Below, in pieces: positions 48,286-50,591 of a stretch of 53,151 nt of DNA; within the stretch, counting starts at the first letter, position 1; each line of letters begins with the position of its first letter. The DNA is taken from the NCBI GenBank assembly GCA_015067675.1, contig SVMB01000014.1, positions 1 through 53,151 on the forward strand. Direction: 5' to 3'. A program made the position numbers and the translations under genes. The DNA is from Oscillospiraceae bacterium (lineage in GTDB: Bacteria; Bacillota; Clostridia; Oscillospirales; QAMX01). Under the pieces are notes generated by a model. It made no database searches, was not told the origin of the DNA, and saw nothing but the letters and a program-made list of their open reading frames with translations.

Positions 48286-48311
48286 AGATTATGTTCCTCC
48301 TGTGTTTGAGT

Positions 48312-48745
48312 ATGTAAAAGGGCGAACGGTATTGTTACTGTTCGCCCTTTCTATTGGGTTGGAACGGCAGTGATAGTCCGCCATTCCATAGAATAATGTC
48401 TTACTTTCTACTCTATTCAGACTGCCTTATGCGTTCGGCACTCGCTTCTACGCCTATGATTCACTTACATAGCCTCTCACCGGATGGCCTGCGGTATGCA
48501 TACTGTCACACTCGGACTGACCCTGGTGGGGAGTATCCCCTCTCTGTCCTCGTCGCCAATCGGGAACAACCCGACTACTCCGAAGCTGATATTTGTCGCT
48601 CCCCGTATAATCGGATCGTCGCGTATCCTTCGGCTTGGCTCTTACAAGAGAGTTCGTTATCTGATAAAGCTATTCAGTTTTCAAAGTACAGTTGCCACAA
48701 ACGGAGATCTACTCTCGTCTGCTATGGAGGAAATAACTCCCCTCA
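48312..48745 (-). ncRNA. Candidate structured non-coding RNA
   Basis: The 498-bp gap between mazF and the sigma-like gene has no convincing reading frame. The minus-strand transcript contains TTTGAAAACTGAATA (48681-48667), like leader sequences found before rRNA and some element genes. It also has hairpins GGGGA/TCCCC (about 48542-48530), TCGGG/CCCGA (about 48576-48562) and GGAATGGC/GCCGTTCC (48386-48360), and long-range GGCAGT/ACTGCC. It ends in an AAAGGGCGAAC hairpin plus TTTT. I could not match it to a known RNA family. Confidence 0.45.
48317..48350 (-). terminator. Intrinsic terminator at the end of the candidate RNA
   Basis: AAAGGGCGAAC (48317-48327) pairs with GTTCGCCCTTT (48340-48350), with an extended inner stem. 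The T tract (CCCTTTTA) is on the minus strand. Confidence 0.75.
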
Positions 48746-48783
48746 ATAGGTAGCCAACGAGAAAGGGCAAATTAGGAAGCTGT

Positions 48784-49275
48784 TCACAAAACATTTACAA
48801 ATAAATTTTTGAATTTGCTCCATCGTGCTCTGACTGCACGATCTGATATCTGCAAAATTCTAGCGGCATCTGTTTGCGAATATCCTTCAAATACAATCAG
48901 CGTGATCAATTCAATATCGCACTGTGGCAGCGTTTTAATTATATCGATAAGACTCGATCTTTCAATCATATCGATCCACCCATATCGATTCTTTACGGAT
49001 CCATCCAATTCCATGGTGCATGACATCACTTCCAGGAATTTTTTTAACAAGGAATTATCACTTTCATCCTGATCGTCTTCTTCAAATATGCGCATATCTA
49101 ACGGCTGTGTATGCATTTGATAATTCCTTTCGCCACGAAAGACATCCAGATCGAACTGCTGCATCTGCTCAATTTGATAATCGGACATGCCTGTAGCGTG
49201 ATATTTCTCCGCAAGACGCACTTGTTTTTCATCAAACTTCTTTCTTTCAAATCCATTATTCCAAGCCATTTTCAT
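48784..49275 (-). CDS. Sigma-like HTH protein (sigma-70 region 4-type)
   Basis: A 163-aa protein. The C-terminal 70 residues contain a region-4-like helix-turn-helix (LIDIIKTLPQCDIELITLIVFEGYSQTDAARILQISDRAVRARWSKFK), as in sigma-70-like proteins of Tn916/Tn1549-type elements. The N-terminal part is acidic (FEEDDQDESDNS) and shows no clear region 2, so it is not a canonical sigma factor. It may activate element genes or be an accessory factor. Start 49275 has GGAGA. It lies behind the structured leader 49358-49548, whose terminator would limit read-through into it. Confidence 0.75.
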   Translation of the reverse strand: MKMAWNNGFERKKFDEKQVRLAEKYHATGMSDYQIEQMQQFDLDVFRGERNYQMHTQPLDMRIFEEDDQDESDNSLLKKFLEVMSCTMELDGSVKNRYGWIDMIERSSLIDIIKTLPQCDIELITLIVFEGYSQTDAARILQISDRAVRARWSKFKNLFVNVL

Positions 49276-49357
49276 AGTCTCCTTTTCGAATTTTTGTGGT
49301 GAAAAATGAAAAGGACGACTACGGGTATTTCGCTATGTAGCAAAGCCAAAGAGGCAT

Positions 49358-49400
49358 AAAAAAGACCTTTCCCGGGCCATTGGAAGCGGCGGGAAAGGTC
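49358..49400 (-). terminator. Intrinsic terminator upstream of the sigma-like gene
   Basis: GACCTTTCCCG (49364-49374) pairs with CGGGAAAGGTC (49390-49400); T6 on the minus strand (49363-49358). Confidence 0.85.
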
Positions 49401-49548
49401 TGATCGAGCCGTATGAAGCATTTTTCGAGCAAGCGTTTGAAAAACAAAAAGCGCCGTAGAAAGCAGAAGATACAGTTGTTCTATATCTTCCGGCTTCATA
49501 CGGCGCTTGATAGCCACGGGATTACTCCCGTCCTTCGCTGGGCTCGAT
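49358..49548 (-). ncRNA. Candidate structured leader RNA (riboswitch- or attenuator-like)
   Basis: On the minus strand ATCGAGCC (49548-49541) can pair with GGCTCGAT (49410-49403). Inside lie hairpin ACGGGA/TCCCGT, hairpin AGCGCCGTA/TACGGCGCT (49507-49499 with 49458-49450) with inner GAAGATA/TATCTTC and a U tract, and a competing 12-bp pairing of 49504-49493 with 49419-49408. A terminator follows at 49400-49358. A GTG-started 81-codon frame (49517-49272) runs through these structures and is not supported as a gene. No other gene is seen from 49276 to 49581. Confidence 0.5.
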
Positions 49549-49581
49549 TATGAAATGTATATTGCTTTATTCAGTTGGCGG

Positions 49582-49872
49582 TTAATACTTAAATTGCGGC
49601 TTTCTTTCGTAGAATTGATCTCCGTAATAGCGCTTTTGTCTGCGAAAGTAACCTAGATTATAGATGGTGATCGCTTTACAGTGTGGACATTTCGCTTTGA
49701 AGTGCCCGGAGCAATCTGAATAAAGGGTACTAATGTACCATCCGCAATACGGACAATGAAGCTCCCGCTGAGTCAAATCAAGACTTTCAGTATATGAACG
49801 ATCCAATTTCTCTTTGATCTCGGGCAAAATTGGCTTTTGCTTCTTTGCTTGAACCTTCGCAACTTGCATCAT
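49582..49872 (-). CDS. Small zinc-ribbon protein
   Basis: A 96-aa protein with a four-Cys zinc-binding motif (CPYCGWYIS ... FKAKCPHC) after a basic N-terminal stretch (KVQAKKQKPILPEIKEK). The C-terminus is rich in Tyr/Arg/Lys (FRRQKRYYGDQFYERK), suggesting nucleic acid binding. It overlaps the ImmA/IrrE gene by 4 bp (ATGA), so the two are coupled. Start 49872 has GGAGG; a second ATG follows at once. Function unknown; such small zinc-ribbon proteins are common in conjugative elements. Confidence 0.75.
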   Translation of the reverse strand: MMQVAKVQAKKQKPILPEIKEKLDRSYTESLDLTQRELHCPYCGWYISTLYSDCSGHFKAKCPHCKAITIYNLGYFRRQKRYYGDQFYERKPQFKY

Positions 49873-50591
49873 GCATTCCCTCCGAAATTCATTTCCAGTG
49901 CAAGGTATTCTTCCATATTCCTATGTTCGACCAAATGCAGATGCTTCAATCGGGTCATGAATGCTGTATACGAAACTCCCAGAATATCTGCCATCTTCTG
50001 AACAGACAGCTTATCCTGCTTGCGCATTACACTGTTAGCGTACAAGGGAATCGGTGCGCCATTGCGGTATTTTTTCATGACCTCTTCCACAAGAAAGCGG
50101 GGCATCAGCAGAACGGAGGCAAGTCGATCCGTCTGCACTTCACAGAAATTCAAACGCTCATGCAGCTCTGTTGCGGTGTAGTTTTGGTCCTTGTCAAAGC
50201 CACGATTAAAACACGGACCGGGGGCAGATGGGCTCATCCGTTCAAAGATAACGTGTGCAGCCTCATGCGCCAACGTAAATCTGCGTCTGCCGCTTTTGTC
50301 GGTACGGAGCAAATAATTGTCGATGACTACCGTTCCTTTTGGGTACACCTTTTCGACTACGGTTCCGTTTTCGTGAACCTTCAGTGGATACGAACCATCG
50401 GATGTAAATCCGACCTTATCCAAGTCACCATCTGCGATTGTCGTGTACACAATCGGCAAATGCAGAAATTCCGTGATAAATCCTTCGATATCGACGCTTT
50501 TGGGATATCGTTTTTGATATTCGGTGATATACTTGTAAATCAGGTATTCACCGACAAGTTCAATTTCATTGTTTGTAACCAGTGTTTTCAT
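49869..50591 (-). CDS. ImmA/IrrE-family metallo-endopeptidase
   Basis: A 240-aa protein with the zinc motif FTLAHEAAHVIF (HExxH) in the second quarter and downstream acidic residues CEVQTDRLASVLLMP as in COG2856. A C-terminal helix-turn-helix-like part (QKMADILGVSYTAFMTRLKHL) is also typical. In ICEBs1 the homologue ImmA cleaves the XRE repressor ImmR to release element genes; an XRE repressor gene is present here at 52755. It is separated from it by the polymerase operon, unlike the adjacent immR-immA pair. Start 50591 follows AAAGGGA; a TATATAAT box near 50695 may serve it. Confidence 0.85.
   Translation of the reverse strand: MKTLVTNNEIELVGEYLIYKYITEYQKRYPKSVDIEGFITEFLHLPIVYTTIADGDLDKVGFTSDGSYPLKVHENGTVVEKVYPKGTVVIDNYLLRTDKSGRRRFTLAHEAAHVIFERMSPSAPGPCFNRGFDKDQNYTATELHERLNFCEVQTDRLASVLLMPRFLVEEVMKKYRNGAPIPLYANSVMRKQDKLSVQKMADILGVSYTAFMTRLKHLHLVEHRNMEEYLALEMNFGGNA

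Follow-up and report, generated by a model that had tools for sequence, protein, structure and literature searches.

The region from 49358 to 49548 of the window, the window being the whole stretch of 53,151 nucleotides that was analysed, raises the question of what a structured RNA does directly before the gene of a sigma-like regulator in an integrative element. An earlier note on this DNA, made from the sequence alone, had read the region as a riboswitch or attenuator that gates read-through from the ImmA operon into the recombination module. All elements of this leader are on the minus strand, and the region is read on that strand throughout. The genes on either side of it are the following.

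49869..50591, minus strand: ImmA/IrrE metalloprotease gene, upstream operon (Pfam Peptidase_M78, E 4.4e-6)
49582..49872, minus strand: Zn-ribbon protein gene, conserved upstream neighbour (the order ImmA, Zn-ribbon, leader is kept in homologues)
48784..49269, minus strand: sigma-70 region 4-like regulator gene (start set at the second ATG, the ORF list gives 49275; Pfam Sigma70_r4_2, E 8.6e-6)

The leader slot is thus between the Zn-ribbon gene, which follows the ImmA/IrrE and Y-family polymerase genes, and the sigma-like gene, 3' of which are a MazF/PemK toxin gene, small HTH genes, and a tyrosine-integrase-like gene. When ImmA was used as query, relatives were found in other genomes of the class and most of these have the order ImmA, Zn-ribbon, leader, and downstream ORF, some with MazF in addition. 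Sigma-70 region 4 was matched by 13 of the 29 proteins encoded downstream of leaders. With the sigma-like protein as bait no relatives were found in the genome and viral collections, none were found in viral contigs with the Zn-ribbon protein as bait, and the window region had no DNA similarity in plasmids and phages. The comparison of these loci shows that a leader slot before regulators of mobile elements is conserved.

Fold of the leader RNA

The 191-nt leader folds at -88.9 kcal/mol compared to -51.6 +/- 4.8 kcal/mol in dinucleotide-preserving shuffles (z -7.8), and 0 of 200 shuffles were as good; the extended region 49260-49560 folds at z -8.6. The closing stem, the several hairpins, the segment with two partners, and the U tracts that the earlier note had listed are all present, and they are borne out by this fold and by covariation. 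The parts of the leader, in reading order of their 5' ends, are the closing stem, hairpin P2, terminator T1 with its U-tract, segment C with its two partners, and hairpin T2 followed by U.

49541..49549, minus strand: closing stem P1, 5' strand (AATCGAGCC), from the minimum-energy fold and the family P1 helix
49517..49530, minus strand: hairpin P2 (CGGGAGTAATCCCG), from the fold; in homologues the hairpin is between GCGGAG and CTACC and its sequence is variable
49446..49508, minus strand: terminator T1, hairpin and U-tract 49450-49446 (-36.6 kcal/mol, z about -8.6; conserved pairs and compensatory changes)
49493..49508, minus strand: segment C, T1 5' arm and strand of the alternative helix (AAGCGCCGTATGAAGC), from the C:E and C:G pairing tests
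49425..49430, minus strand: segment F, family-type P1 3' strand (GCTCGA, 6 bp with TCGAGC), from the family P1 test
49408..49419, minus strand: segment G, which forms the alternative helix with C (12 contiguous pairs), from the C:G tests
49403..49410, minus strand: closing-stem 3' strand named in the earlier note (GGCTCGAT), from the fold; not the usual position in homologues
49358..49400, minus strand: hairpin T2 and U-run, SD (Shine-Dalgarno) hairpin of the leader peptide and possible second terminator (-22.9 kcal/mol, z -5.0)

In the minimum-energy fold the closing stem is formed by 49548-49541 (ATCGAGCC) with 49410-49403 (GGCTCGAT). In homologues the 3' strand of P1 is usually just upstream of the alternative partner G, and therefore the exact 8-bp closing stem is partly peculiar to the window copy. 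The P1 strands of homologues fit the partner from the same copy (mean 7.03) better than swapped partners (5.84, sd 0.21). A simple pattern scan, which allowed loops of 3-8 bases and few interruptions, found neither T1 nor T2 because of these limits; the energy fold finds both. Across homologues the leader pairing covaries, as a check proposed in advance had asked, and it is not due to chance.

Segment C pairs with either of two partners

Segment C, given in the earlier note as 49507-49493 and here as 49508-49493, can pair with 49464-49449, which is the T1 3' arm (E), or with 49419-49408 (G). Compensatory changes support both helices. One position of the C:E helix switches from A-U to G-C in step among homologues, and the same C position also tracks its partner in G (G-C in 11, A-U in 9). 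In the C:G helix 93.8% of cells were paired, with 27 double-change cells as against 9.9 after shuffling, and slid controls gave 22-44%. When G was anchored on invariant bases only, so that pairing of the two varying bases was not required, these two bases paired in 47 of 49 copies as against 35 after permutation; 39 were Watson-Crick whereas 16 were expected by permutation (maximum 27), the collection pattern having restricted segment C to few variants. Thus, the mutually exclusive pairings of C are shown by the alignment to be supported by covariation.

The two helices are not equal in quality. In nearly all copies E has no perfect match opposite the YR of GTAYRAAG, which leaves a bulge or mismatch in T1 at that place, while C:G is contiguous. 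The contiguous run of C:G was longer than that of C:E in 40 of 44 copies (mean 10.0 vs 6.7), a count that is biased since copies with a G were selected. In G-containing RNA the T1 and C:G states are predicted to be near-isoenergetic, with a median gap of 1.8 kcal/mol and a gap of 1.4 kcal/mol in the window. Predicted accessibility of the SD did not differ between the T1 state and the C:G state.

The position of G decides how this switch can work. It is 3' of T1 in the window and in the homologues that have G, and since G is transcribed after T1, the C:G helix cannot by itself prevent termination at T1 and refolding is confined to read-through RNA. Of the switch layout that had been proposed, therefore, the alternative helices are real but the alternative partner does not block termination at T1, and with its competing strand downstream of T1 the leader fails the classical antiterminator test. 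By the order of the strands in the sequence P1 and C:G interleave, and a pseudoknot is therefore predicted to be possible in the read-through RNA. One clade of small mobilizable elements lacks G but keeps T1, and G is also absent from some other copies. In L040 (4407-4674) and L082 (409-674) the leader RNA is in tandem and the first copy has a broken T1. These comparisons of homologues show a conserved, covarying, bistable terminator leader, and the reading as an attenuator-type leader before the sigma-like gene that gates read-through from the ImmA operon is well supported by the conserved operon order, the conserved terminator, and the mutually exclusive, covarying helices.

Distribution of the leader family

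In a species-level genome collection a gapped pattern made from the homologues matched 74 contigs, and nearly all of these are from Clostridia or from other Bacillota. The pattern also matched 3 viral contigs, of which L088 was dropped as it does not resemble the leader. Isolates with the element include Faecalicatena contorta and Papillibacter cinnamivorans. Of 391 genomes of the same class, 10 had the family by a covariance model, R1, which covers the T1 part only. In the window's own genome R1 gave one true match and a second, weak match that is its own reverse strand, and elsewhere in the phylum it gave no convincing match. Two genomes of one genus in another class of the phylum (L103 and L104) had weak model matches with E about 4e-6 and a similar layout, ACTTTTTATCAAGTAAGCAG followed by a terminator; these may be chance or a distant relative and were left out of the analysis. 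In an Rfam 15 cmscan of the window and homologues the leader matched no family at gathering score, riboswitches and RF02913 included, and at a relaxed threshold Rfam gave only microRNA noise on the leader.

The region could also have been the end of a coding sequence. The window's reading frame is open across the region in only 3 of 48 distinct homologues, the window being counted, and we rejected this explanation because the open frame is lost in 45 of 48 homologues while the pairing is kept, the opposite of the kept frame and lost pairing that would have spoken against the leader. Eight copies (L016, L028, L029, L034, L036, L040, L058, and L082) have near-perfect sigma-70 promoters, TTGACA and TATAAT or TATACT spaced by 17 nt, directly 5' of the leader. 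Some copies have LexA-like boxes in the promoter spacer, such as GAACATTTGTTC in L040, and L039 has CGAACATATGTTTG; judged by these boxes, SOS control is likely in such copies. LexA/SOS boxes in the window were no more than expected by chance. Taken together, the leader family, which is carried by mobile elements of gut Clostridia, is real, probably new, and a form of attenuation.

A conserved leader peptide and a second SD hairpin

Hairpin T2 is formed by 49400-49364 and is followed by six U. The U-run that the earlier note had pointed out is there, but T2 is at least equally an SD hairpin because the following ORF, which is a leader peptide or, in other elements, an XRE-type regulator, has its SD in the 3' arm of T2 (GGGAAAGG). 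In the XRE-type copies T2 covers the SD of the regulator directly and the peptide stage is absent. Two features were found downstream of the region that the earlier note had delimited, namely, the leader peptide (49357-49319) and an SD-sequestering hairpin (49323-49274).

49319..49357, minus strand: leader peptide MPLWLCYIAKYP-stop (33 distinct cores, most variable at third codon positions and with Y P stop conserved)
49274..49323, minus strand: SD-burying hairpin of the sigma-like gene, from the peptide stop codon, with SD AAAAGGAG at 49286-49279 (-19.6 kcal/mol, z -5.9)

An ORF of 12-14 codons that ends in Y-P-stop directly follows T2 at 41 loci; in the window it codes for 12 amino acids. 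The family pattern is W-x-C-x-I-A-x-Y-P-stop. The W, P, and stop were requirements of the search. Of the other residues, Y is invariant among the 33 distinct cores, whereas 30 cores have the A, 28 the I, and 27 the C. Differences at codon positions 1, 2, and 3 were 779, 890, and 2151, and there were 1220 synonymous and 1341 nonsynonymous differences as against 302 and 2408, and 610 and 2382, in the two shifted frames. By this pattern of substitutions the leader peptide is coding. Its stop codon is within the 5' arm of the SD hairpin and the 3' arm carries the SD of the sigma-like gene. Covariation in this hairpin is modest (own arms 8.65 vs swapped arms 8.26, sd 0.14). The same peptide and SD hairpin are found behind two unrelated leader RNAs in the same slot, one in Monoglobus L107, L124, and L128 and the other in L121 and L125, and in these the boxA-like motif described below and a terminator are again present. 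Since peptide and SD hairpin persist behind unrelated leader RNAs, the module is probably selected in its own right.

A boxA-like motif upstream of the leader

A further element precedes the leader.

49568..49578, minus strand: boxA-like motif CCAACTGAATA, upstream of the leader (PWM score 7.2 in the window)

The motif, A[AC]AACTGAATA and variants, precedes the leader core by about 40-50 nt, and many loci have it a second time 3' of the regulator gene. A PWM trained on these other (second) sites scored 31 of 67 leaders above 95% of shuffles. We take the motif to resemble the boxA of rRNA operons; this form of it was not found in the 16S leaders of two relatives, Papillibacter and Oscillibacter.

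The motif also stands at the start of the orf8-xis interval in the Tn916-family elements L116 and pCF10 (L129); the Xis of L116 matches PDB 1y6u with E 2.8e-40. The canT antiterminator of Tn916 has been mapped to the orf8-xis interval, and the text of that paper has no mention of pemK, Rfam, or boxA (PMC11658703). The Rfam pemK RNA (RF02913) is in this interval at 2171-2271 of L129 and 2075-2173 of L116, with a boxA-like TGTTCTTTGAAAACTGAATA at the interval start. A function for pemK RNA is suggested by this co-location. In homologues it is the second RNA that RF02913 matches; that of the window is not matched, and no pemK RNA was found there at E up to 1. Non-coding DNA of about 490 nt separates the sigma-like gene from MazF in the window (48300-48784), and it has several inverted repeats and, at 48671-48684, TTGAAAACTGAATA; this is at the canT/pemK RNA position and is perhaps a divergent relative. 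Upstream of orf7 in L129, which is the Tn916-family element of pCF10, Rfam SQ2397 (RF03532) is at 722-951, near the leader slot.

Proposed two-stage mechanism

The explanation that we favour, and which we consider reasonably likely, is that the leader is a cis-acting attenuator that acts in two stages, on transcription and then on translation, to control the sigma-like regulator of the integrative element. In the first stage transcription would enter from the ImmA operon or, in some relatives, start at a promoter immediately 5' of the leader. T1 would form and transcription would mostly stop; here the conservation of the terminator is observed and termination is predicted from it. In RNA that reads through, C could be released from the flawed T1 base to form a perfect helix with G, giving with P1 an interleaved, pseudoknot-like fold. 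The most likely role of C:G would be to dismantle T1 and fix the read-through form of the mRNA. The second stage is at T2, which covers the SD of the 12-14-codon leader peptide with its conserved Y-P-stop. The leaders of erm/cat, TnaC, and MsrDL suggest by analogy that a ribosome arrested at the peptide's end would hold the SD hairpin open and the regulator would be made, which would then presumably switch on the MazF/Xis/Int module. The excision genes would probably be off until a signal opens the gate, and slowed translation or translation inhibitors are our first guess for it. The arrest of the ribosome at Y-P-stop, the inducing signal, and the effect on excision are what we infer in this proposal. 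Points that weigh against it are the location of G after T1 and its loss from one clade and from some other copies, the equal predicted accessibility of the SD in the two states, the absence of the peptide stage from XRE-type copies, and the modest covariation of the SD hairpin.

In translational attenuation of ermC and cat-86, too, the SD is sequestered in a hairpin that immediately follows a short leader peptide whose stop codon is in the 5' arm, and in the window family both a conserved coding leader peptide and an SD-sequestering hairpin that overlaps the leader ORF were found. Unlike ermC and cat-86, the gene here is a mobile-element regulator and not a resistance gene, the peptide is conserved up to Y-P-stop, and a refolding terminator precedes it. 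An intrinsic terminator is upstream as in transcription attenuators, but an antiterminator strand made before completion of the terminator is not found. The peptide has conserved C-terminal residues before the stop in 33 distinct cores, and as in the termination-arrest peptides TnaC and MsrDL the conserved part is the end of the peptide at the stop codon. TnaC likewise contains a W, and P is its last residue. TnaC offers a precedent for arrest at a stop codon (PMC3902921), and with MsrDL release is blocked at UAA, which causes arrest at the stop codon (PMC10314930). In contrast to both, the leader peptide has only 12-14 codons and other spacing, and it would act on an SD hairpin and not on Rho or a terminator.

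In Tn916 the tet(M) attenuator governs read-through into orf7 and orf8 and is upstream of the sigma-like orf7 region. It shares with the leader its place upstream of a sigma-like gene region in an integrative element, whereas the window locus has no tet gene, a different peptide and RNA, and the regulator gene as its first gene. The canT (PMC11658703) and pemK (RF02913) RNAs are in the same operon and have a similar boxA-like motif at the 5' border, but they lie after the sigma gene and the leader body has no recognised similarity to them in sequence or structure. SQ2397 (RF03532), a cis-regulator of an HTH factor, is likewise a structured RNA near the same slot before a sigma-like gene; it is a different family and the window leader does not match it. 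A bolder version of the proposal, which we advance as speculation and consider rather doubtful, is that this is an undescribed class of bistable leader, in which the downstream competing strand and interleaved pseudoknot give rise to a termination-resistant polymerase, joined to a new family of termination-arrest peptides (W-x-C-x-I-A-x-Y-P-stop) that senses the host ribosome before excision and has been spread by mobile elements of Clostridia.

Alternative explanations

Processive antitermination, which is shown for canT of Tn916 without known protein partners (PMC11658703), would account for several of these observations. In this explanation the boxA-like motif and the structured 5' domain would recruit Nus-type factors and the polymerase would then pass T1, T2, and later terminators, so that T1 and T2 stop unmodified polymerase only. 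The motif is at a fixed distance upstream of most leaders and is retained when the type of leader RNA changes, it stands at the start of the pemK RNA/canT interval in Tn916-family elements, there are two terminators in series, and some copies begin right after a perfect promoter. However, the motif is degenerate in about half of the leaders, its form is missing from the 16S leaders of the two relatives, the leader body is not similar to canT/pemK RNA, and the C:G switch and the peptide are left unexplained; we regard antitermination as an unlikely alternative. That the leader is simply an insulator, in which T1 and T2 would terminate constitutively and C:G refolding would matter for the stability or processing of the RNA and not for a signal, is less probable still. 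It would fit two strong terminators, a G that comes after T1, and a clade that lacks G and still has T1. What argues for regulation over an insulator is that the flaw in T1 is kept exactly where C:G is perfect, and that the peptide and the SD hairpin are conserved; the long conserved single-stranded segments also speak against it.

The riboswitch part of the earlier reading, taken as a ligand-binding RNA, found no support. A small-molecule aptamer controlling T1 could be sought in the P1/P2/T1 junction with its conserved CAAGCGGAG and CTACCAAGC, where the junction bases are highly conserved while the hairpins are variable, and the family is widely distributed. Yet no Rfam riboswitch matches, the downstream genes are mobile-element regulators and not metabolic genes, and the topology of the partners is unlike known expression platforms, which makes this very improbable. 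Least credible, and hardly worth retaining, is an explanation at the level of DNA, with the inverted repeats as operators for a DNA-binding regulator, as a transfer or recombination site, or as the end of a coding sequence. It would agree with the palindromic repeats, with three related copies of CGCCGTA(C)GAAGC, and with the open frame that crosses the window copy, but it is largely refuted by the compensatory pairing and further opposed by the strand-specific U-tracts, by promoters in the right direction, and by loss of the frame in 45 of 48 homologues.

Implications for mobile elements of the family

Two-stage attenuation of the regulator, as favoured here, would have consequences for RNA regulation and for the elements themselves. 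The topology in which the partner is downstream is unusual for attenuators, and through its link to the canT interval pemK RNA, a curated RNA family of unexplained role, would gain a function. Integrative elements are main carriers of genes between gut bacteria, and to our knowledge the triggers of their exit from the chromosome are understood in little more than a few models, among them Tn916 and ICEBs1. The conserved leader, with its putative peptide sensor before the regulator, would be a direct handle on this exit. If translation stress opens the gate, then antibiotics could promote the transfer of elements that have no resistance gene near the gate.
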